From Opitutaceae bacterium (GTDB taxonomy: Bacteria > Verrucomicrobiota > Verrucomicrobiia > Opitutales > Opitutaceae): a stretch of DNA of 42,061 nucleotides. The translations under genes and the position numbers were made by a program. Within the stretch, counting starts at the first letter, position 1. Every line of letters starts with the position of its first letter. The stretch is taken from assembly GCA_027488595.1 (NCBI GenBank), contig JAIYBI010000305.1, positions 1 through 42,061 of the forward strand, given 5' to 3'. Below are positions 1-21,206 of the stretch, piece by piece. Under the pieces are notes generated by a model. It was given only the letters and a program-made list of their open reading frames with translations. It did no database searches and was not told the origin of the DNA.

Positions 1-1190
1 ACCACGCCCCAGTCCGACGTGAAGGGCAAATGGGAACTCTCCACCCCCGTCACCGCCAAAAACTTCTCCGCCGTCGCCTACTTTTTCGCCAAGGAAATCC
101 GCCGCACCCAAAACGTCCCCGTCGCCGTCTTCAACGACGCCTGGGGCGGCACGCCGGTCAAGACTTGGATGAACGTCGAAAGCCTCCGCTCCAGCTCCAG
201 CCCAGTCCTCGCCAAGACGCTCGCCGAGTGGGAAAAGGCCCTCGCCCAGCACCTCTCCGTCAAGGACAAGCCCGAGCTCATGACGGCCTACTACGCCGAC
301 ATGAAGGATTGGGAAACCAACGTGCAGCCGCGCATCAAAGCCGCCAAGGCCGCCGGCAAACCCGCCCCCGCTGACGCCCGCCCTGAGCCCGTTCAGCCCG
401 ATCCCATCGCCATGCCGTCCGCCTCGAAGCGCCCGTCCACCCCCACCATTTCCTACAACGCCATGATCGCCCCGCTCGCACCCTACGGCCTGCGCGGCTT
501 CCTCTGGTATCAGGGCGAGGCCGACGCCTCCCGTGGTCTCGAATACCGCGAACTCTTCCCCGCCCTCATCCAGGGCTGGCGCACCGTCTGGGGCCAGGGC
601 GACCTGCCTTTCCTCTTCGTGCAACTTCCCTCCAACGGCAAAGACACCGTGCCCGTCGCCGCCCAGTCCAACACCATCCCCTGGCTGCGCGAGGCCCAGG
701 CCCGCACCCTCGCCCTTCCCGCCACCGGCATGGCCGTCACCCTCGACATCGGCAATCCAGCCGATGTCCACCCTGACAACAAAATCCACACCGGCCAACG
801 CCTAGCCCTCGTCGCCCGCGAGACAGTTTACGGCGAAAAGATCACCGGCACCAGCCCGCTCTACCGCGACCACACCGTATCCGGCTCTTCAATACGCATC
901 CGCTTCACCAACACCGGCGGCGGTCTCGTGATCGGCGAGGCGCCCTGGCGACCGCCGGCGCCGAAGCCTGGCCGAAAGACAAACTCGTCGGTTTCTACAT
1001 CGCCGGCGAAGACAAGAAATGGGTCGAAGCCTCCGCCCGCATCGAGGGCGATGCCGTCATTGTCTCCGCCCCGTCCGTCGCCGCCCCAGTCGCCGTCCGC
1101 TACGGTTGGGCCAGCTCGCCGCCCGTAAATCTCTCCAACAAGGAGGGCCTCCCCGCCGCGCCTTTCCGCACCGACGACTGGCCCCGCTAA
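1..1190 (+). CDS. Sialate O-acetylesterase (SASA family), 5' cut by window edge and frameshifted
   Basis: This is a SASA/SGNH-type carbohydrate O-acetylesterase that would remove acetyl groups from sugars. The frame is open from base 1, so the real start and the N-terminal nucleophile Ser block lie outside the window. Family marks that remain are [22 protein letters not shown], the [10 protein letters not shown] block (about 502-531) and the catalytic D-V-H-P motif (Asp at 763, His at 769). After VIGEAP the first frame becomes Pro/Ser-rich junk. A frame offset by one carries the expected C-terminus ([19 protein letters not shown] and on) to a TAA at 1188-1190. The GH43 gene starts 8 nt later, so the two form an operon. 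It is either a recent pseudogene or an assembly error. In xylan-type clusters such enzymes deacetylate the polymer; the actual substrate is not known here. Confidence 0.85.
940..948 (+). other. Probable 1-base deletion (frameshift) in the esterase gene
   Basis: The upstream reading frame ends in ...GEAP at the CCC run at 943-945. Adding one C there gives [17 protein letters not shown] and joins the two halves of the esterase without a gap. The site is a short C homopolymer, which fits either a sequencing or assembly error or a genuine inactivating deletion. Confidence 0.75.
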
Positions 1191-1198
1191 AATCCGCC

Positions 1199-2821
1199 AT
1201 GCCCGCCACCCTCCGCAATCCCGTCCTCACCGGCTTCCACCCCGACCCGTCCATCTGCCGCGTCGGCGACGATTTCTACATCGCCACCTCCACGTTCGAG
1301 TGGTTCCCCGGCGTGCGCATCTACCACTCGCGCGACCTCGCGAACTGGCGGCTCGCCGGCTCCGCCCTCGATCGCGTTTCCCAGCTCGACATGCGCGGCT
1401 GCCAGAACTCCGCCGGCATCTGGGCCCCGTGCCTCACCCACGCCGACGGCAAGTTCTGGCTCATCTACACCAACGTCCGCCACCACGGCCACCCCATCGT
1501 CCACGACACCCCCAACTACCTCGTCACCGCCGACCGCATCGAGGGCCCCTGGAGCGAGCCCGTCTATCTCAACTCCAGCGGCTTCGATCCCAGCCTCTTC
1601 CACGACGACGACGGCCGCAAATACATCGTCCAGATGCAGACCGGCGAGGCCGCCACTCCGCGCCGCTTCGACGGCATCCTCCTCCAGGAATACGACCCCG
1701 TCACCGCCCGTCTCCTCGGCGATCCCGTCAACATCTGGGCCGGCTCTCCCATCGGCATCACCGAGGGCCCGCACCTCCTCAAAAAAGACGGCTGGTATTA
1801 CCTCATTACCGCCGAGGGCGGCACCTCCGTGCGCCACGCCGTGAGCGTCTGCCGCAGCCGCGATCTCCTCGGCCCTTACGAGATCCATCCGCAAAACCCC
1901 ATCCTCACCGCCTACCAAAAGGAACACCTCGCGATGTGGTCCACCGGCCACGGTTGCTTCGTGGACACGCCGCGCGGCGAGTGGTTCACCGTCCACCTCT
2001 GCCACCGCCCGCTCCAGCGCCCCGGACGCCTCGTGCTCGACCGCGAGGAGAATAAATCCGTCCCGCTCGGCCGCGAGACCGGCATCCAAAAACTCCGCTG
2101 GGACGCCGACGGCTGGCCCCGCCTCGCCAACGGCGACAACTCCCCGCGCGACACCGTCGAGGTTGATCTCCCCGCCCACCCCTGGCCCGCCGAGCCCGGC
2201 CGCGTTTCCTTCACCGGCCCCTCGCTCCCTCCCGTCTTCCAAACCCTGCGCGAACCGCCCGACGAATCGTGGCTAAGTTTCTCCCGCCGCCCCGGCGCAC
2301 TCAGCCTGCGCGGACGCGATTCGCTCGCCTCCACTTTCGACCAGAGCGTCGTCGCCCGCCGCCTCCAGCACCACCACGCCGCCGCCGAAACCGTTCTGCA
2401 CTTTTCCCCGCGCAACTTCAAACAAGCCGCCGGACTCATCACCTACTACGACCGTTTTCACTACCACTATTTCCGCGTCACCGCCGCCGGTCCCGGCCGC
2501 GCCAAGCTCGGCGTTTACACCTCGGCCTTCGACAAACTTTCCCGCCACGAGGTCGCCGAGTTCCCCGTCGAGATCGCCGCCGCCGGCCTCCGCCTCCGCA
2601 TGGAAATGCGCGGCGTCGAGCTGCGCTTCTCCTACGCACTCGGCACCTCTGCCGACGCCGCATGGCAAACGGTCGAACGCGTCTTCGAAGCCACGCTCTG
2701 CGGCGACTGGGCCTCTCCCCAAGGCGGCTTCACCGGCACCTTCTGGGGCGTGTGCTGCCAGGATCTCGCCACCCGTGACGCCTGGGCCGATTTCTCCGGC
2801 TTCGACTACCAACCACTCTGA
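1199..2821 (+). CDS. Glycoside hydrolase family 43 (beta-xylosidase / alpha-L-arabinofuranosidase type)
   Basis: This 540-residue inverting glycosidase has a five-bladed beta-propeller at about residues 5-310 and a C-terminal beta-sandwich at about 340-540, the layout of XynB-type GH43 enzymes. The three acidic residues are visible: base Asp16 in GFHPDPS, pKa-modulating Asp130 in SGFDPSLF, and acid Glu189 in ITEGPHLL. There is no signal peptide, so it probably acts inside the cell on imported oligosaccharides. The start at 1199 is chosen because NPVLTGFHPDPS must lie near the N-terminus in this family; the longer open frame upstream overlaps the esterase. No clear ribosome-binding site is visible. 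It follows the esterase by 8 nt and is probably co-transcribed. Xylosidase versus arabinofuranosidase activity cannot be decided from sequence. Confidence 0.93.
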   Translation: MPATLRNPVLTGFHPDPSICRVGDDFYIATSTFEWFPGVRIYHSRDLANWRLAGSALDRVSQLDMRGCQNSAGIWAPCLTHADGKFWLIYTNVRHHGHPIVHDTPNYLVTADRIEGPWSEPVYLNSSGFDPSLFHDDDGRKYIVQMQTGEAATPRRFDGILLQEYDPVTARLLGDPVNIWAGSPIGITEGPHLLKKDGWYYLITAEGGTSVRHAVSVCRSRDLLGPYEIHPQNPILTAYQKEHLAMWSTGHGCFVDTPRGEWFTVHLCHRPLQRPGRLVLDREENKSVPLGRETGIQKLRWDADGWPRLANGDNSPRDTVEVDLPAHPWPAEPGRVSFTGPSLPPVFQTLREPPDESWLSFSRRPGALSLRGRDSLASTFDQSVVARRLQHHHAAAETVLHFSPRNFKQAAGLITYYDRFHYHYFRVTAAGPGRAKLGVYTSAFDKLSRHEVAEFPVEIAAAGLRLRMEMRGVELRFSYALGTSADAAWQTVERVFEATLCGDWASPQGGFTGTFWGVCCQDLATRDAWADFSGFDYQPL

Positions 2822-11894: not shown

Positions 11895-13112
11895 TCACGT
11901 CACTTGCGTGCGAGCCGAGCTGCCACCGAAGAGCTCCTTCAGCGAGCTCCAAGCCTTGAGCAGGCCGGCGTCCTGCACGCCGCCTTCGATGGCGTAGGCG
12001 CGGACGACGGCGTCCTCGTGGTCGCGATAGCGGGGAGGCAATACGAAGGCGGTTTTCTCGCCGCAACGGATGGACGAAATGAAGAGGCCTTTGCCGACCG
12101 AGACCTGGGCATCGAGTTTCACGTCGAGGGTTTTTTCGGGCAGCACCAGCCAGGGGCGGTAGCGGAAAACGAGTTTGCCATTGGCAGGCTCGAGACGGAG
12201 ACGGCCGTAAGTGCGCATCGGCACGCCTTGTTCGCTGAGGGTGTTGCTGGAGAAGAGCAGGTTTTCACCCTTCTCGACGACCTGGAAGCGGTGTTTACGG
12301 AAAGTGAAAAAGTCCCAGGAGAAAATCGTGCCGAAGATCGTCAGGCGGAAGGCCCAGCCGGCGATGAGGTAGGCGATCAAAACAACGACGAGCGAGAGGA
12401 TCGCGCTGATCCACGGGCTGAGGGTGGCGGTGAGGGCGATGAGGCCGAGCAAGGCGGTTCGGGCGCCCTTGAGGGCGGCATCAATCGCGCCCCAGGGGCT
12501 GAGGAGGATGAGGGCGTTGATGGCGTGCGAGGCCATCCAGACGACGAGAAAAACCGCCACGCCGATGGGGACGGTGAGGATGCTCAGCGCCCACGACCAA
12601 TCAATCGCGCCGACCTGCACGGCGGCCATGCCGTTGGCGGTGAGCACATCGCCGGCGGGCGCGGACTGGGCGATGATCATCTTGGAAAGTGCGCTCATCG
12701 TAAAAGGCACCACCGCGCCGGCGGCGACGAGACCCGAGGCCTTGTTCTCGATGGTTTCGAGCACATCGAGGGGCTTTTTCATGCCGGGCGGGAGGACGGC
12801 GCCGATGCTGTCTTTGCAGGCGCAGAGACCGACGAGGGCGAGGGCGGGCACGAAGAAGCTCCACTGCGCATACCACGGCAGCGCAGCTTTCTCCTCGGGC
12901 GTCTTGGCCTTGGTGGCCTGCCAGGCCCCGAGCGCGGCAGTGCCAAGCAGGGGGGAAATGGCGACCCCGGTGACGGTTGAAATCGTCTTCGCGTAGGCGG
13001 ACGAAGGCGACGAGTCCTTCGCGGCCGGCGCGGCGGCGGGAGCCGCTTGACTGGGGCCCGCGAGGACAGCTAATACGGAGAGGAACGCGAATAAGGACTT
13101 GAGACGTTTCAT
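11895..13112 (-). CDS. Multi-pass membrane protein of unknown family
   Basis: The 405-residue protein begins with a signal peptide (MKRLKSLFAFLSVLAVLAG, cleavage near SQAAPA). At least four hydrophobic segments follow, at about residues 85-105, 130-150, 175-215 and 220-265. The C-terminal part, about 270-405, is soluble and beta-rich (FRKHRFQVVEKGENLLF, YGRLRLEPANGKLVF, VLPPRYRDHEDAVV). I do not recognise any domain. The ATG at 13112 is chosen over 13139 because it begins the signal peptide. It lies downstream of the Gfo/Idh/MocA gene on the same strand with a 78-base gap. The proposed topology is from reading hydrophobicity only. Confidence 0.75.
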   Translation of the reverse strand: MKRLKSLFAFLSVLAVLAGPSQAAPAAAPAAKDSSPSSAYAKTISTVTGVAISPLLGTAALGAWQATKAKTPEEKAALPWYAQWSFFVPALALVGLCACKDSIGAVLPPGMKKPLDVLETIENKASGLVAAGAVVPFTMSALSKMIIAQSAPAGDVLTANGMAAVQVGAIDWSWALSILTVPIGVAVFLVVWMASHAINALILLSPWGAIDAALKGARTALLGLIALTATLSPWISAILSLVVVLIAYLIAGWAFRLTIFGTIFSWDFFTFRKHRFQVVEKGENLLFSSNTLSEQGVPMRTYGRLRLEPANGKLVFRYRPWLVLPEKTLDVKLDAQVSVGKGLFISSIRCGEKTAFVLPPRYRDHEDAVVRAYAIEGGVQDAGLLKAWSSLKELFGGSSARTQVT

Positions 13113-13190
13113 GTAGTTAAAAATTCCAGAGAGTTGCATGACGAGTCCCGGTCAAAATGCAGGCACATTTCTAAAAGCGTAAAAAGTGCC

Positions 13191-14338: not shown

Positions 14339-15064
14339 ATGCCGCTCACCAAGGCCGAGATCACCCGACTACGCTCCCTGCAGGACAAAAAAGCCCGCGA
14401 GGCCGCCGGCCTCTACGTGGTCGAGAATCCCAAGGTCGTGGCCGAGCTGCTCGCAGCCGGGCATGCCTTCGCGGAGTTTTACGCGACCGACGGGGCCGCA
14501 TCGCACGGAAGCGTGACCGTGACACCGGCGGAGCTGGCGCGTATCAGTCATTTCCCTACGCCGTCGGATGTTTTTGCCGTCGGCCGCATCAGCCGCGCCA
14601 CGCTCGCTCCGGGTGAACTCGCGCACGGGCTGACGCTGGCGCTCGACGGCATTCAAGACCCCGGCAACGTCGGCACCTTGTTGCGCATCGCGGACTGGTT
14701 CGGCTTCGCGCGCGTGCTGCTTTCGCCGGACAGCGCGGACCTGTTTTCACAAAAGGTAATCAATGCCAGCATGGGCTCCTTCGCCCGCGTGCGGGTGATC
14801 ACGACGGCGCTGGCAGCCGCGTTGGCGGATGCCGGCGCGGCAGGCGTGCCGGTGCTTGGCTGCGACCTCGCCGGCGAGCCGGTTTACGCTCTGGCGCCGC
14901 TGGCGGACGCAGTGGTGGTGATCGGCAGCGAAGGCCGCGGGCTCTCGGCCGGAGTGACGGCGGCCTTGACGCGACGAGTGACCATCCCGCGCCACGGCGG
15001 CGCGGAGAGCCTGAACGCAGCCGTCGCCGCCGGGATTGTCTGCGCGGCGTTGCGACGCGGGTGA
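14339..15064 (+). CDS. SpoU-family RNA 2'-O-methyltransferase (TrmH/RlmB-like)
   Basis: This 241-residue SAM-dependent enzyme would methylate a ribose 2'-OH in rRNA or tRNA. The three SPOUT motifs are clear: motif 1 DPGNVGTLLRIADWFG (residues about 109-124), motif 2 VVVIGSEGRGLS, and motif 3 IPRHGGAESLNAAVAAGI, which form the trefoil knot. The N-terminal 90 residues resemble the RNA-binding substrate domain (LRSLQDKKAREAAGLYVVEN). The start at 14339 gives MPLTKAEITRLRSLQ, standard for the family; the longer frame overlaps the divergent promoter. It converges with the LysE gene, and only a weak 5-bp stem (CCTCG/CGAGG at 15079-15092) lies between them. The exact RNA position modified cannot be told. 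Confidence 0.93.
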   Translation: MPLTKAEITRLRSLQDKKAREAAGLYVVENPKVVAELLAAGHAFAEFYATDGAASHGSVTVTPAELARISHFPTPSDVFAVGRISRATLAPGELAHGLTLALDGIQDPGNVGTLLRIADWFGFARVLLSPDSADLFSQKVINASMGSFARVRVITTALAAALADAGAAGVPVLGCDLAGEPVYALAPLADAVVVIGSEGRGLSAGVTAALTRRVTIPRHGGAESLNAAVAAGIVCAALRRG

Positions 15065-15107
15065 GGCATTCGCCGCGACCTCGTCTGCGAGGAGCTAAAC
15101 CACCGCC

Positions 15108-15728
15108 CTAGCGCACGGCGATGATGATGCCTGCGACGATCAGCATCGCGCCCGCCAGCCGATTCAAGAGCCGCATCCGAGCCGGGCTTGCCAGAAATCG
15201 CCGGCTTCCCGCTGCGAGCGCCGCATACGCCGTCATGATCGAACCTACCGTCACGAGCACGATTCCACCCATGACGATGGCATCACCCGCCGAGAGCGCG
15301 GGCAGCTCAACAAAGGTTGGGAGCAACCCGGCGTAAAACGCGATCGCCTTGGGGTTGCCAGCCGTCACGAGAAAGCCAGCGATGAAGTTTTGCCCCGCAC
15401 CCGGGCCGGCACGCTCCATCGGGCCAACCGGCGCGGCGGCACTCGGGCGCTCGCGCCAAAGTTTTACGCCCAGCCAGATGAGATATGCCGCCCCGGCGAA
15501 TTTCACTGCAATAAACGCCTCACCCATCGAACGGGCCAGTGTCGCCATCCCGAGCACCGCGAGGCAGAAATAAATCAAGTCCCCCAACGCAATGCCGCCC
15601 ACCATCGCGAGCGCCGCGCGGAAGCCACGCCCGATGGCGCAGGAGACGACGGCAAACACTCCCGGTCCCGGCAGAGCGACGGCAACCGCCAGCGCTACCG
15701 TGAACGCAATGAGGACCGAGAAATGCAT
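15108..15728 (-). CDS. LysE/RhtB-family amino-acid exporter
   Basis: The 206-residue inner-membrane protein has the usual family length and about five to six transmembrane helices. Family signs are ALPGPGVFAVVSCAIGRG near the first helix, GDLIYFCLAVLG, YLIWLGVKLW and FLVTAGNPKAIAFYAGLLP. Such proteins export amino acids such as lysine, homoserine, threonine or leucine using the proton gradient. The ATG at 15728 is chosen because it begins the first helix. It lies downstream of the glutaminase fusion gene on the same strand across a 118-base gap with a small hairpin, so co-transcription is possible but not shown. The transported amino acid is not known. Confidence 0.92.
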   Translation of the reverse strand: MHFSVLIAFTVALAVAVALPGPGVFAVVSCAIGRGFRAALAMVGGIALGDLIYFCLAVLGMATLARSMGEAFIAVKFAGAAYLIWLGVKLWRERPSAAAPVGPMERAGPGAGQNFIAGFLVTAGNPKAIAFYAGLLPTFVELPALSAGDAIVMGGIVLVTVGSIMTAYAALAAGSRRFLASPARMRLLNRLAGAMLIVAGIIIAVR

Positions 15729-15824
15729 GAGCGGGGAGCCTGCGCCCTTCCCCTTCGGCGGCAATCGCGGACGTTGCGCTGGGGCGGGCCGAGATGAGGG
15801 CGCCTGCCCGTTACATAAATATGG

Positions 15825-15842
15825 TCCCGCTTCTTCGCGGGA
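15825..15842 (-). terminator. Weak terminator-like hairpin after the glutaminase fusion gene
   Basis: TCCCGC (15825-15830) pairs with GCGGGA (15837-15842) over a six-base loop. On the minus strand it begins 5 nt after the glutaminase stop and is followed by CCATATTTATGT, which is only moderately T-rich. It may give partial termination before the LysE gene. Confidence 0.35.
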
Positions 15843-15846
15843 GACA

Positions 15847-17700
15847 TCAGGAGGAGTGGGCGGCGGTGATCTCGATGTTGGCTTTGCGCAGGCGGCGGGC
15901 GAGGATCATGGCGAGGTTGCGCAGGATGCCGGCGCCGATCGCGGGGTGCTCTTTTTCCAACGACTCGAAGTCGGCGGCGGAGAGAGCGACGCAGTCCACA
16001 GCGGAGTGAGCGACGACCGAGGCGGAGCGCGGCGAGGCGTCAATCAAGGCGAGCTCGCCGAGGGCCGTGCCGGCGGAGAAAGTGGCGACGCGAAAACGCG
16101 GTTTTCCGGGTGGCTCGATCCAGACGTCGGCCGAGCCGCGCAGGATGAAATACAGGATGCGATCCGTGCTGCCCGCCTCGATGATGCGCTCGTCGGCGGC
16201 GAAGACGTGGTGTTTGAACAGCCCGCGCAAGATGTGTCTGGCCTCGGCGGTGAGGCCGGCGAAAAGTTCGCACTCCTCGGGGTCGAGCAAGCGGGTGTTC
16301 CAGCCGGGGCGGGAGCAATGGGCGACAACACGGTTCTCGATGGTCTCGAGGGCGAGTTCGTAGTCGGGGATAAACTCGACGCGGCTCCAGCTCTGATCGG
16401 AGAGTGCGGCTTTGAAGGCCTGCTCGAGTTTGCCGAGAATCGGGCCGCTGGTGAGCGTCAGCGTCTTGCCGCCGGTAGTGAGGGTGGTGGCGAGGCGGGC
16501 GAGCAGATCGGCAGCCACGTGATCAATGGCGGGAACGTTTTTAAAACTCAGCAGGAGATGATCCGCCTGCTGCGCCTCGCGCAGAGTCTCGCGCACGACA
16601 CGTTCGGCGGTGGTGAATTGCAGCTCGCCTTGGAAGTGGAGGTGGCGGATGCGGGGGCCTTGTTTCTGAAGCATGGCCTGCTCGCCGGCGGAGCGGATGC
16701 GCTTCGAGCCGACCTCGGCGGAGGAGCTGACGCTGCGGATGACGGAGAGCGCCTGGTGGGCGGCGTTGAAGAGGTGGAGGTTGAACTTTTGCGAGAGCTC
16801 GCGGCAGGCGGCGATGCCGCGCACGCTATTGCCCTGAGCGTCGAGGCGCGGGGAGAAAACGCCGATGCCAAGCTGGCCGGGCAGGACGGCGAGGATGCCG
16901 CCCGCGACGCCGCTCTTGGCCGGGATGCCGACTTGGTAGATCCAGGCGCCGGCGGCGTCATACATGCCGCAACTGGCCATGACGCTGAGGATGTTTTCAA
17001 CGTAATCGCCGGTGACGGCACGTTGAAGGGTGAGAGGGTTGACGCCGCCGTTGGCGAGTGTGGCGGCCATGACTGCGAGATCGCGACAGTGAACGAGCAC
17101 CGAACACTGCATGAAATAGGCCTCGAGGGTGGGCGTCGGGTCGGTGGTGAGGATGTCGAAGTTGCGCAGCATGTGCCCGATGGCGCGGTTGCGATGGCCG
17201 GTTTCGCTCTCGGAGCGGTAGACGGTGTCGTCTATCTCCAGCGGGCGGCCGGCGTAGCGGGACAAGACCTCGATGATGCGCTGGATTTTTTCGGCGGTGG
17301 TGTCGCCCTTGACCAGGCCGGTGGTGGCGATGGCGCCGGCGTTGATCATTGGGTTGAGCGGGCGGCCGGTGTCGGGCTGGAGGCTGATGGAGTTGAAGGC
17401 CTCGCCGGAAGGCTCCATCCAAATTTTTTTCAAGACCTCGGGCTGGCCCTTGTCTTCGAGGGCGATGCCGTAGTTGAGCGCCTTGGAAATGGACTGGATG
17501 GTAAAAGTCTGCGTGGTGTCGCCCGCCTCGTAGATCGCACCGTCGGCGGTGACGAGACAAATGCCGAACCAGTCGGGATTGGCCTTGCCCAGCTCGGGAA
17601 TGTAGGTGGCCACCTCGCCCTCGTGGTTGTGGCGAAGACGGCTGTGAAGTTCGTCAATGATGAGTTGAATCGGTGAAAGAGCGGATGCGGCGTCGGGCAT
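15847..17700 (-). CDS. glsA: Glutaminase A fused to STAS and cyclic-nucleotide-binding domains
   Basis: Residues 1-310 are a serine-dependent beta-lactamase-like glutaminase that hydrolyses glutamine to glutamate and ammonia. They carry Ser70 and Lys73 (QSISKAL), Asn120 (PMINAGAI), Tyr196 (AYFMQCS), Tyr247 (CGMYDAAG) and Val265 (KSGVAGGI). Residues about 348-455 look like a STAS domain, but the phosphorylatable Ser of anti-sigma-antagonists is absent ([10 protein letters not shown]). Residues about 475-605 are a cyclic-nucleotide-binding domain that keeps the phosphate-cassette Gly548-Glu549 (ALGELALI) and Arg558 (SPRSASVV). Free-standing glutaminases are about 300-330 residues, so this 617-residue protein has roughly doubled. 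Binding of a cyclic nucleotide could switch activity, but that is inference. It is divergent from the PhnA-like gene and upstream of an amino-acid exporter. Confidence 0.93.
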
Positions 17701-17874
17701 GTTGCGGCGAATTGGATTTGGCGGGGATGGACGGGGCGTGAAAGTTTTTCATGCAGGGCGCGTGCCAGAGGTAAAAAAGACGCGTTTTTCGGTGCTTTCG
17801 GCTGGTGGGGGCGCGAAGCGATCTTGCGTTGGCGCGACGATGCACGATTTCCGAACCTGCACCCGCAAACCCAC

Positions 17875-18222
17875 ATGTCCGATCCCGCTGCTCCCTCCGC
17901 CCCGCCTGCCTGCCCCGCCTGCACGCTCAATGATGTCCTCGCCCACGCCGACCACTGGGAGTGCGCGACCTGCGGGCACGAGTGGCCGCGCGAGGCCGAG
18001 CCCGAGGCGGCGCGCGTGGTCAAGGATGCCCACGGCACCGTGCTCGCCGACGGCGACGACGTGGTGTTGATCAAGGACCTGAAACTGCGCGGCTCGTCGC
18101 AGGTTTTGAAGCAAGGCTCGAAGGGGAAAAATATCCGCCTGGTGGACGGCGACCACGAGATTGATTGCAAAGTGGACGGCACGCCGATGGCGCTAAAGGC
18201 CTGCTTCGTGAAGAAAGCCTGA
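17875..18222 (+). CDS. yjdM: PhnA/YjdM-family zinc-ribbon protein
   Basis: The 115-residue cytoplasmic protein has an N-terminal zinc ribbon (CPAC near residue 14, CATCGHEW near 31) and a C-terminal small beta barrel ([47 protein letters not shown]). This is the standard length and layout of PhnA/YjdM. The family was named after the phosphonate operon, but its actual function is not settled, and no phosphonate genes are nearby. The ATG at 17875 is chosen because the earlier one at 17824 adds residues unlike the family. It is convergent with pyruvate kinase, with 44 bases between stops. Confidence 0.93.
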
Positions 18223-18266
18223 GCCACCCGCGATTTCGAGAGCGGCCCGGAGGTATCAAGGTCTGC

Positions 18267-19700
18267 TTAATGCACCTTGCGGAGCTGGATGCTATCCACC
18301 AAGCGGTCGTGGGAAAGCAGGTCAGTCACGACGATGAGGCGGTCGCCGATTTGGAGACGCCCTTCGCGAACCAAAAAGGTGATGGCGCGCTCGATCGTGT
18401 CATTGGGGTCGGAATCGAAGGTGAGCAAGTAGGGGTCGACTGCCCGTAGGATGCGCATCTCGCGCAGCGTCTCGACCGAGTTGGTCATGGCGTAGATCGG
18501 AGCGAGGCAGGGGCGCATCGCGGCAAGGCCCTGGGCCATGAAACCCTGCCGGGTGAAGGTAAGGATGGTGATGCCCGGCATATCGTTCGCAAGATGGACG
18601 GCCGCGGCGAGGAGCTTGAACTTGTCGCCCTTGAGGAAGGCGGGAGCGAGGTTGACAACCGGCTCCTCGGATTCGACGCGACGGGCGACTTTTTCGAGGA
18701 TACGCACGCAGTCCATCGGGTATTTCCCGACGGTCGTTTCGCCGGAGAGCATGACGCAGTCGGCGCGCTCGTGCACGGCGTTGGCGACGTCGGTGATCTC
18801 GGCGCGGGTGGGCATGGGCTGGGAGATCATGGACTCCAGCATGTGGGTGGCGATGATCACGGCGCGGCCGTGGTCGAAGCAGACCTTGACGGCGCGGCGC
18901 TGGATGGAGGGCAGCTCCTCGAAAGGGCACTCGATGCCGAGGTCGCCGCGGGCGACCATGAGGGCGTCGGTGGCACGCACGATCTCGTCGAGGTTGGAGA
19001 TGGCCTGCTGGTCCTCGATCTTGGCGATGATCTTGGCGCGCGATTTGTTGGCCCGCAAAAACTCGCGCAACTGCTCGATGTCCTTCCCTTCACGCACGAA
19101 GGAAAGTGCCACGAAATCAATGCCCTCCTCGATGCCCATGAGGGTGTCGAGGCGGTCCTTCTCGGTGAAGGAAGGCAGGTTCACCTTAACGCCGGGAAGG
19201 TTGATGTGGCGGCGGGAGGTGAGCTGGCCGGGGATGAGCACTTTGCAACGGATGCGGGCCTGGTCTTTCTCCAGCACCTCGAAGCGCATGAGACCGCTGT
19301 CCACGAGGACGATGTCGCCAACTTTGATGTCGTTAACGAGATCCTGGTAGTTGACGTTCACGGAGCGGATCTCCTCGCCGCCCTCGCGGTCGCCGGGCTT
19401 CACGGTGAAGTCGAAAATCTGGCCGACCTTGAGCTCGATGGGGGAGGCCACGTCGCCGGTGCGGATCTCAGGTCCCTTGATGTCCATCATGATGCCGATT
19501 TCGCGGCCGACCTTGGCGGAGACGGCGCGGATGCGACGGATGACGGCGCGGCACCACTCGTGTTTGCCGTGGGCCATATTGAGGCGGGCGATGTCAGCTC
19601 CTCCGGTGATCAGTTTTTCCAGCATCTCCTCTGACTCGGTGGCGGGGCCAAGCGTGAAGATGACCTTGGTGCGACGGAACTCAGCGTTTGTGATAGCCAT
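18267..19700 (-). CDS. pyk: Pyruvate kinase
   Basis: This 477-residue glycolytic enzyme converts phosphoenolpyruvate and ADP to pyruvate and ATP. Motifs visible in order are RTKVIFTLGPAT, ADIARLNMAHG, MDIKGPEIRTG, the B-domain (residues about 85-180), VALSFVREGKD, IAKIEDQQAISN with the catalytic Lys, MVARGDLGIE with the Mg-binding residues, and ATHMLESMISQPMPTRAEIT. The C-terminal domain (about 350-477) is present, so the usual allosteric region is intact. The start ATG at 19700 yields MAITNAEFRRTK; a longer start would add unlikely residues. It stands apart from the PEP carboxykinase gene 5 kb away, which runs the opposite metabolic direction. Confidence 0.97.
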   Translation of the reverse strand: MAITNAEFRRTKVIFTLGPATESEEMLEKLITGGADIARLNMAHGKHEWCRAVIRRIRAVSAKVGREIGIMMDIKGPEIRTGDVASPIELKVGQIFDFTVKPGDREGGEEIRSVNVNYQDLVNDIKVGDIVLVDSGLMRFEVLEKDQARIRCKVLIPGQLTSRRHINLPGVKVNLPSFTEKDRLDTLMGIEEGIDFVALSFVREGKDIEQLREFLRANKSRAKIIAKIEDQQAISNLDEIVRATDALMVARGDLGIECPFEELPSIQRRAVKVCFDHGRAVIIATHMLESMISQPMPTRAEITDVANAVHERADCVMLSGETTVGKYPMDCVRILEKVARRVESEEPVVNLAPAFLKGDKFKLLAAAVHLANDMPGITILTFTRQGFMAQGLAAMRPCLAPIYAMTNSVETLREMRILRAVDPYLLTFDSDPNDTIERAITFLVREGRLQIGDRLIVVTDLLSHDRLVDSIQLRKVH

Positions 19701-19787: not shown

Positions 19788-20585
19788 CTACCACTCGCAC
19801 GCCGGGGCACCTTCACCCGGCCCTACGATATGGAAGCCGCAGCCCAAACGCGTCCGCAGGCCGGCGAAGGTCTGCTCCACCGCGGCGAGGCTGTTGCAGT
19901 CACGGCTCAGGTGAGTCAGGAAAACCTGCTGCCAGCGCGGGCTCGCCGTGGCGGCCAGCAGGTCGTGCGCGGCCTCGTTGGAGAGGTGTCCGTGGCGCCC
20001 GCCGATGCGTTGCTTGGTTTTCCACGGCCGGCGGTGATCCGCCTCAAGGAGTTTCGGGCAATGGTTGCTCTCCACCACCACGACTTCGCAAGCGCGCAGG
20101 TGGGCGTAAACATGGGCGGGCACATGCCCGAGATCAGTCAGCCAGACGAGGCTGCGTCGGGGAGAGAACAGATCGCCATCCGTGCCGCTCGCAAAGGTAA
20201 ATCCCACCGGCTCCTGCGCATCGTGCGGCACCGTGAAGCTCTCGACCTCCAGGTCGCGAAAGGCGAAACGCGTGCCGCTCTCGAAAATCCGCCAGCTCAC
20301 CGCACCGCCGAGCTTGGCACGCACCGCCCGGGCAGTGGCTTCGTTGGCGAAAACTGAGACGTGCGGGTGCTTCTTAAACATCTCCACCCCGGCGGCGTGG
20401 TCGCCGTGTTCGTGAGTGAGAAAGACCGCGTCCAACTCGTCCGGCCGCGTGTCGGCCGCGACGAGGAGCTCCGTGAGTTTTCGCGTGGAGAAACCGGCAT
20501 CAATCAACACCCGAGCTCCGTCGGTGCGCAACAGGGCGGCGTTGCCCGAACTGCCACTGCCAAGGATCTGGATGCGCATCGCCAT
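19788..20585 (-). CDS. YycJ/WalJ-like metallo-beta-lactamase-fold hydrolase
   Basis: The 265-residue enzyme has the metal-binding motif THEHGDH (residues about 57-63), LTDLGHVP, VESNHCPKLL and THLSRDCN, with a start (MRIQILGSGSSGNAALL) typical of the YycJ group. Such proteins are double-stranded exonuclease-like or RNase-Z-like hydrolases linked to mismatch repair or cell-wall signalling in other bacteria, but the substrate here is unknown. Two starts are possible, at 20585 and 20579; the second begins MRIQILGS directly. It lies 87 nt upstream of pyruvate kinase on the same strand and is divergent from the PTPS gene. Confidence 0.9.
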   Translation of the reverse strand: MAMRIQILGSGSSGNAALLRTDGARVLIDAGFSTRKLTELLVAADTRPDELDAVFLTHEHGDHAAGVEMFKKHPHVSVFANEATARAVRAKLGGAVSWRIFESGTRFAFRDLEVESFTVPHDAQEPVGFTFASGTDGDLFSPRRSLVWLTDLGHVPAHVYAHLRACEVVVVESNHCPKLLEADHRRPWKTKQRIGGRHGHLSNEAAHDLLAATASPRWQQVFLTHLSRDCNSLAAVEQTFAGLRTRLGCGFHIVGPGEGAPACEW

Positions 20586-20708
20586 GTCTCGCCCGAAGAG
20601 AATCCACCCCCGCCCGCGCGCTCAACCCTTCTCTTGGCCGCGCCCTGGAAAAACCACAGCCTCCCGTTGACCCCGCCGCGCTTCGGGTCCACTCATTTCA
20701 CCCCGTCC

Positions 20709-21206
20709 ATGGCCAAGTCTGCTTCCAAACCTTCCGCCGCGCGCCGCTCGCGCCCCGTCGTCCGCCCCCTGCGCGGCACGGTCTATGTGACGCGCCAAGT
20801 CCACTTCAACTCCGCTCACCGCCTCTACAACCCGACCAAGTCCAAACGCTGGAACGAGGAGCGCTACGGCCTCTGTTCCAATCCCCACTGGCACGGCCAC
20901 AACTACGTTCTGGAGGTCACCGTAGCAGGCGAGCCCGACCCCGAAACCGGTTACCTGATGGACCTCGGCACGCTGAAATCCATTCTCGAGGAGCACATTC
21001 TAAAACCCTGCGACCACCGCAATCTCAACGACGAGGTCGTCTTCCTGCGCGGCATAATTCCGTCCACCGAAAACCTCGTCATCGCCTTCTGGGAACAGAT
21101 CGAACCCCACATCAAAACCGGCCGTCTCCACGCCGTGAAACTCTTCGAAACTCCGCGCAACTTCGCTGAATATCGCGGCCCCTCCGCCTTCGCGTCGGAG
21201 CCCTGA
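20709..21206 (+). CDS. 6-pyruvoyl-tetrahydropterin synthase (PTPS)-like enzyme
   Basis: This 165-residue enzyme has the three Zn-binding histidines (His37 in FNSAH; His62 and His64 in HWHGHNY) and the catalytic residues Cys56 (GLCSNPH), Asp102-His103 (KPCDHRNL) and Glu147 (KLFETPR). The pattern CSNPHWHGHNY, then DPETGYLMDLG, LKPCDHRNLN and PSTENL, resembles eukaryote-type PTPS of tetrahydrobiopterin synthesis more than the QueD branch. It would turn 7,8-dihydroneopterin triphosphate into 6-pyruvoyl-tetrahydropterin. The start at 20709 leaves a basic 20-residue N-terminal tail; no shorter start keeps the first strand. FolE2 and an SDR follow on the same strand. Queuosine or folate duty (QueD, PTPS-III) remains possible. 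Confidence 0.85.
   Translation: MAKSASKPSAARRSRPVVRPLRGTVYVTRQVHFNSAHRLYNPTKSKRWNEERYGLCSNPHWHGHNYVLEVTVAGEPDPETGYLMDLGTLKSILEEHILKPCDHRNLNDEVVFLRGIIPSTENLVIAFWEQIEPHIKTGRLHAVKLFETPRNFAEYRGPSAFASEP

Follow-up and report, generated by a model that had tools for sequence, protein, structure and literature searches.

The gene analysed here raises the question of whether a bacterial glutaminase may be controlled directly by a cyclic nucleotide. Its product joins a glutaminase, a STAS domain and a C-terminal cyclic-nucleotide-binding (CNB) domain in one chain (Table 1), and it lies on a 42,061-nucleotide contig of an Opitutaceae bacterium (the window, meaning the whole stretch of DNA analysed), part of a draft genome of 4.13 Mb in 578 contigs that is 85.9% complete. 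From the sequence, the reading that we favour, and that we hold to be rather probable, is that the protein is a serine-type glutaminase whose activity or assembly would be set by the C-terminal STAS-CNB part binding a cyclic nucleotide, most likely cAMP.

Table 1 Features of the glutaminase-STAS-CNB gene and of its product (positions in the window; domain limits in residues of the protein).
Feature	Coordinates	Strand	Evidence
glutaminase-STAS-CNB gene, 617 aa	15847..17700	minus	ORF, Pfam, full-length alignment from residue 1 with three genus mates
glutaminase domain, residues 28-311	16768..17619	minus	PF04960, E 6.6e-120
STAS domain, residues 348-417	16450..16659	minus	PF01740, E 6.6e-7
post-STAS helix, residues 447-462, ALExxE motif	16315..16362	minus	helix in model
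CNB domain (cNMP_binding), residues 499-583	15952..16206	minus	PF00027, E 5.5e-13
phosphate-binding cassette, residues 548-560, within CNB domain		minus	residue conservation, alignment
whole STAS-CNB module, about residues 332-617	15850..16707	minus	profile-profile match to SulP modules
weak terminator-like hairpin just 3' of the stop codon	15825..15842	minus	hairpin search of the region

The three domains scored above the curated Pfam cut-offs (PF04960, 400 against 27 bits; PF01740, 29.5 against 22.6; PF00027, 49.1 against 27.5), confirming the fusion that the initial annotation had read from the letters. The match to STAS_2 was below its cut-off; TIGR03814 matched at 358.3 bits (cut-off 255.4), and the NCBIfam model NF002134, a glutaminase model of STAS length, at 456.1 bits, below its equivalog cut-off of 557. 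The start codon of this minus-strand gene ends at 17700 and the stop codon occupies 15847-15849. An AlphaFold2 model of the full-length protein (78 aligned sequences), a check that the initial annotation had proposed, was a confident three-domain model (pLDDT 91.1, pTM 0.87), with good definition of the domains and of the linker helices. A plus-strand ORF over the same span (694 aa) has the look of the antisense of a high-GC gene, and an antisense-artefact reading of the gene was rejected because the minus-strand protein has strong family matches. The hairpin that follows the stop codon perhaps ends a single-gene transcript, the evidence being weak (the region has three terminator-like hairpins, and shuffled sequences have 2.4 on average).

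The residues expected of the enzyme were counted in 87 distinct full-length proteins, that of the window included. Ser70, Lys73, Tyr195, Tyr247 and Val265 were invariant (87/87); the roles of the Ser-x-x-Lys pair and of the two Tyr and the Val positions we take to be those in solved glutaminases. Four of the five catalytic residues named beforehand (Ser70, Lys73, Tyr247, Val265) thus stood, and the fifth, Tyr196, was displaced by one position: residue 196 is Phe in the window protein (and in 86 of the 87), the invariant catalytic-type Tyr being 195. By its residues, the N-terminal part is a complete serine-type glutaminase with its predicted active site intact. The STAS domain was said to lack the usual phosphorylatable Ser, and it does: the phosphorylation column, located with the SpoIIAA Asp-Ser motif and presumably correct, is occupied in the window protein by His394 (within Asp393-His394-Val395), with no Ser/Thr of the SpoIIAA type, and it holds Ser in just five of the 87 proteins. 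SpoIIE-type phosphatases act on phosphorylated STAS proteins; the His394 of the window protein, together with the scarcity of Ser in its relatives, makes classical STAS partner switching unlikely for this glutaminase.

The first two domains have a solved counterpart. Mglu, the salt-tolerant glutaminase of Micrococcus luteus K-3 (3ih8, 3if5, 3agd), has a glutaminase followed by a STAS-aligning domain, as in the window protein, and it provided the best structural match of the model (3ih8_A; model residues 6-420, Z 46.9, 389 aligned residues, 41% identity), that of 3if5 reaching model residue 425. The rmsd of about 11 Å between Mglu and the model indicates that the two domains are placed differently. 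Mglu has 456 aa and ends after the STAS-like part, without a CNB domain, whereas the window protein has one. Its crystal structures were reportedly described by Yoshimune in 2010, and the glutaminase-STAS architecture is already known. Kidney-type glutaminase (KGA, GLS) has the same catalytic domain, at 42-43% identity, and the features described for KGA are phosphate, filament formation and ankyrin repeats, not a STAS-CNB part (PMC13142944, in the portion available). The same portion of this 2026 review of glutamine enzymes states that the allosteric site of bacterial glutaminases is pre-stabilised and that they lack a conserved filament interface; neither of the terms STAS and cyclic nucleotide appears there (PMC13142944). 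A fusion of a CNB domain to a metabolic control enzyme, as here, is also found in the mycobacterial protein Pat, the enzyme being a different one; with the Pat model NF058543 the CNB domain alone aligned (E 3.7e-4, profile positions 2-104 of 317, far below the cut-off). Pat is regulated by cAMP and carries its CNB domain at the N-terminus.

No description of the glutaminase-STAS-CNB order was found in the open literature, the search lying outside most subscription journals. A study of glutaminase evolution by Pasquali et al. (2017) may have catalogued bacterial glutaminase architectures, and domain databases probably already contain this order; the architecture itself is therefore not claimed as a discovery, and the additions made here are the module shared with other proteins, the conservation of the pocket and the neighbouring cyclases.

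The fusion proved to be widespread. A scan of GTDB species genomes gave 393 stretches encoding a relative, of which the best 80 were kept; 77 of these 80 have a single ORF whose alignment starts ahead of residue 40 and continues past residue 570 (a few of the 77 loci touch a contig end). The other three were a locus running off its contig (L072), one split into two ORFs (L061) and one whose ORF covers residues 92-611 (L088). The survey of architectures suggested by the initial annotation thus found glutaminase-STAS-CNB to be a common order, and the idea that the combination might be unusual has to be given up, given this count and the solved structure of Mglu. Repetition of the three-domain order in dozens of genomes takes the fusion far beyond chance, and accidental read-through from one gene into the next was ruled out by the fused order in single ORFs and by the conserved linker seen in the profile comparison described below. 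The record labels of the carriers name six phyla (Verrucomicrobiota, Planctomycetota, Pseudomonadota, Myxococcota, Chloroflexota, Actinomycetota), these labels being record titles, many of metagenome bins and some doubtful. Within groups the gene is patchy: a match reaching the end of the CNB domain was found in 11 of 387 genomes spread over the window's phylum (the window's own included), a match at 1e-110 in 26 of 384 genomes from the class of G390 (one of them, in G603, covering the glutaminase part only), and a match in 12 of 398 genomes from the phylum of G483, G483 itself included. Three genus mates carry the protein at 86, 75 and 73% identity (G010, G005 and G006, respectively), the first being a complete genome labelled Verrucomicrobia bacterium IMCC26134 (L021). 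In a tree of the STAS-CNB modules the proteobacterial, chloroflexal and myxococcal copies sit among verrucomicrobial ones; together with the patchy spread, this suggests horizontal transfer of the fusion gene. In a tree of the glutaminase domain, whose bootstrap had not settled, the fused proteins need five changes and form no single clean clade, and two apparently tail-less glutaminases (L110, L276) lie near fused ones, reflecting either loss or a contig end; a single origin of the fusion is not claimed on the basis of this tree.

The C-terminal half of the protein is not confined to glutaminases. The window's own genome encodes a SulP-type transporter with STAS and CNB domains (contig C126), and seven relatives have proteins (L014-L020) that resemble the glutaminase tail in their last 300 residues (28-32% identity); Pfam places a sulfate-transporter part N-terminal to STAS-CNB in three of these proteins (L014-L016), and the remaining four are matched by a SulP profile derived from this same set. 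These transporters share with the window protein the pre-STAS segment, the STAS domain, the ALExxE helix and the CNB domain, but have a membrane transporter at the N-terminus instead of a glutaminase, and their modules form a separate group: in an unrooted tree of 111 modules, one branch (99/90, 98% of bootstraps) lies between 89 glutaminase and 22 SulP modules. A profile-profile comparison of 13 glutaminase tails with 11 SulP tails aligned 298 columns (E 2.7e-68), including the pre-STAS segment and the linker, and for this reason STAS, linker and CNB domain were most likely inherited as one unit, not put together twice from loose domains. Glu455, in the post-STAS helix (window 16336-16338), is present in all 112 distinct glutaminase modules and in all 23 SulP modules. 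Among the matches listed in a module search of 40 carrier genomes, the full-length copies that were read have either a glutaminase or a SulP transporter in front; one STAS-CNB ORF of 261 aa near a contig end (L188) has no glutaminase or SulP partner visible.

The sharing of the module bears on what we regard as the main rival reading, itself unlikely: that STAS-CNB docks the glutaminase, in a nucleotide-dependent way, to a membrane partner such as a SulP transporter with the same module. The module would then serve as a targeting or scaffold device, not as a control of catalysis, and the release of ammonia and glutamate would be placed beside transport. STAS domains are protein-interaction domains, the same genome holds a transporter with the same module, and in G988 (L306, 6154-14356) the fusion gene and a SulP-STAS-CNB gene lie about 4 kb apart, with a gene for a CNB-patatin of the NTE type between them and all three within about 8 kb. 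That is, however, the only one of 112 distinct loci, with flanks of varying length, in which a SulP gene lies near the fusion gene. The shared module would also make it possible to study the tail of these transporters away from the membrane.

Control by a nucleotide requires a pocket, and the residues on which the initial annotation had based the possibility of cAMP or cGMP binding held up in the alignment of the 87 proteins: Gly548 in 87, Glu549 as 83 Glu and 4 Asp, and Arg558 in 86. Counts in the 112 distinct glutaminase modules were similar (Gly548, 112; Glu549, 107 Glu and 5 Asp; Arg558, 111; Ser559, 102; Ala560, 106), and the Gly, Glu and Arg positions were kept in 23, 22 and 23 of the 23 SulP modules. 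The phosphate-binding cassette of CNB domains has the pattern Gly-Glu ... Arg-(Ser/Thr/Ala)-Ala, which the window protein shows with Gly548, Glu549, Arg558, Ser559 and Ala560, and its cassette aligns gap-free, residue by residue, to that of a PKA-type CNB domain (5j3u). A module that is mainly structural, giving stability or oligomerisation as the STAS tail of Mglu might do, with a CNB domain that does not respond to a ligand, appears very improbable. It would agree with the existence of glutaminase-STAS proteins without a CNB domain (Mglu, and the proteins of Embleya, L170, and Acinetobacter, L171; in these last two the STAS part is recognised by the module profile but gives no Pfam STAS match above the cut-off), but the cassette Gly, Glu/Asp and Arg rank among the most conserved CNB positions, which is unexpected for a purely structural domain.

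A model of the CNB domain alone (pLDDT 94.1) had cAMP-bound GlxR as its best structural match (Z 19.8, rmsd 1.9, 144 aligned residues), and other CRP-type matches include Mycobacterium CRP; the Z values are far above 7-8, which the tool gives as typical where a model has no clear match. FNR and ligand-free proteins of the CRP type are also in the list, so the fold alone is no proof of binding. CNB folds with intact cassettes can also bind other nucleotides, as PycTIR does with cUMP, which counts against the cAMP reading. Another cyclic nucleotide (cGMP, cUMP or cCMP) might be the ligand, with the same logic and a signal other than cAMP, and this we find decidedly unlikely. The cUMP-bound CNB domain of PycTIR (8jsk) is among the structural matches (Z 17.5), the best PADLOC hit of the window protein is PycTIR, over the CNB domain (E 1.4e-17), and in the cyclase next to the fusion gene at L097 Arg stands in place of both residues of the Lys/Thr pair, the pair being kept in the neighbouring cyclases of L030 and L035. 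The PADLOC hits, however, reflect general CNB and cyclase homology, and the three cyclases of the window's own genome that are readable in the catalytic region have Lys together with Thr or Ser at the selectivity positions, a pair that we take to select ATP and to be typical of adenylate cyclases. In Pycsar effectors a CNB domain is joined to an effector domain, either membrane or NADase, and the second gene of the two-gene locus encodes a pyrimidine cyclase; an anti-phage effector of this kind was rejected for the window protein, whose catalytic part is a complete metabolic glutaminase and whose window contains no cyclase.

Binding of cAMP would need a source of it. The window's own genome has four matches to class III cyclases, one of them cut by a contig end. 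Such cyclases were present in 37 of 39 carrier genomes, but they are frequent in any case, 38 of 52 non-carrier relatives having one (Fisher p 0.011), and the difference is treated as weak because the two sets differ in taxonomy; the carriers were four genomes from the search for relatives and those of 35 of the best 80 loci, chosen for spread. Clustering of neighbouring ORFs first pointed to a recurrent CHASE2-type protein beside the fusion gene. In a profile search of the scan loci, a class III cyclase was found within 5 kb at L028, L030, L035, L079, L080, L094 and L097, all of them direct neighbours (the stop-to-stop ORFs overlap or are 4-136 nt apart) except that of L094; G390 provided one more direct neighbour, and G341 a cyclase at 3.8 kb. 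Pfam recognised CHASE2 and a cyclase domain at L028, L030, L035, L080, L097, G390, G341 and L243, and a receiver and a cyclase domain in the protein near L094 (L247); the cyclase at L079 is in two ORF pieces by the profile search. Four arrangements were distinguished: cyclase downstream on the same strand (L028, G390); upstream on the same strand in Akkermansiaceae-labelled genomes (L030, L035); upstream on the same strand in a betaproteobacterium-labelled genome (L097); and convergent (L079, L080).

In total, a cyclase was the direct neighbour at 7 of 112 distinct loci, against 0.25 expected from 197 cyclase matches in 174 Mb, and lay within 5 kb at 9 of 112, the flanks being uneven (at least 4.8 kb on both sides in 66 loci, at least 300 nt in 107). 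The 112 loci comprise 78 from the GTDB scan, 10 from the window and other searches and 24 drawn later, with copies of the same locus removed; cyclases at 6.6 kb in two Maritimibacter loci were left out of the count. Taken as four independent events, the adjacency would have a Poisson probability of 1.4e-4, for a pattern that was noticed after the fact. There was no cyclase at the 24 distinct loci drawn later (15 + 13 regions with 4 repeats removed, flanks mostly about 6 kb), nor anywhere in the 42 kb of the window, nor near the fusion genes of the three genus mates. Among control loci a cyclase was near 0 of 20 standalone glutaminases and 1 of 20 SulP genes, sets (14 of 20 in each with at least 4.8 kb on both sides) too small to decide against 9 of 112. 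It is possible, and we put it forward tentatively, that STAS-CNB is a portable control cassette with a SulP anion transporter and a glutaminase as its outputs, and that some lineages encode a dedicated CHASE2 cyclase next to the glutaminase; one second messenger would then act on the proteins themselves to set both the transport of anions and the breakdown of glutamine.

The proposed control of the glutaminase itself would run as follows. The CNB domain would bind a 3',5'-cyclic nucleotide, the likeliest being cAMP from the class III cyclases of the cell; binding would move the C-terminal helix of the CNB domain; the movement would be relayed to the glutaminase core by the conserved linker helix, with Glu455, and by the STAS domain, along a path that we infer; and the release of glutamate and ammonia would thereby be raised or lowered. 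The original proposal that one polypeptide unites glutamine hydrolysis with a nucleotide sensor is favoured, as a prediction, by the conservation of both sites, by the CNB model and, in some lineages, by the neighbouring cyclases. The best-known controls of nitrogen metabolism in bacteria are PII proteins, adenylylation and transcription, and bacterial cyclic-nucleotide signalling acts mostly through transcription factors. If the proposal is correct, glutamine breakdown would be linked directly and fast to nucleotide sensing within one chain, and a small signal molecule may tune a glutaminase directly in the cell; with enzyme and sensor in one polypeptide, this is cheap to test.

The surroundings of the gene in the window consist of a gene for a LysE-type exporter downstream, a divergent YjdM/PhnA gene and a pyruvate kinase gene upstream. 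Six of the seven neighbours tested recur close to the fusion gene of the genus mate IMCC26134 (L021, L248): YjdM, the pyruvate kinase, a SpoU methylase, an oxidoreductase and the proteins of 19788-20585 and 20361-21206. The LysE protein was not found at any other locus compared, and a glutaminase-exporter operon is therefore not supported. No Rfam family at gathering score and no tRNA were found in the window, and no sigma-70-like promoter in 15000-18300. A 414-aa ORF at 11895-13139 (minus strand) has no Pfam match at 0.001 and apparently contains hydrophobic segments.

Other CNB proteins were observed in the course of the searches. On contig C245 of the window's own genome (L003, 142-1905, minus strand), a CNB domain stands in front of an aldehyde dehydrogenase (Pfam Aldedh, cNMP_binding); by its predicted domains, this is a second metabolic enzyme with a nucleotide-sensor domain in the same genome. 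A gene of the CNB-SpoIIE type directly adjoins the SulP-STAS-CNB gene in G006 (L174) and G005 (L175; Pfam on L175), and at L097 the fusion gene has a gene for a CNB-SpoIIE phosphatase at a distance of about 1.8 kb (L246). A C-terminal CNB domain was also found in ABC transporter ATPases (L191 in G010, by Pfam, and L192 in G005) and in a Ser/Thr protein kinase (L190 in G475, 690-2027, plus strand). Finally, in four genomes of one genus group (G325, G378, G663, G648), short CNB proteins are encoded close to the fusion gene (L237, L238, L287, L291; Pfam on L237, L238 and L291).
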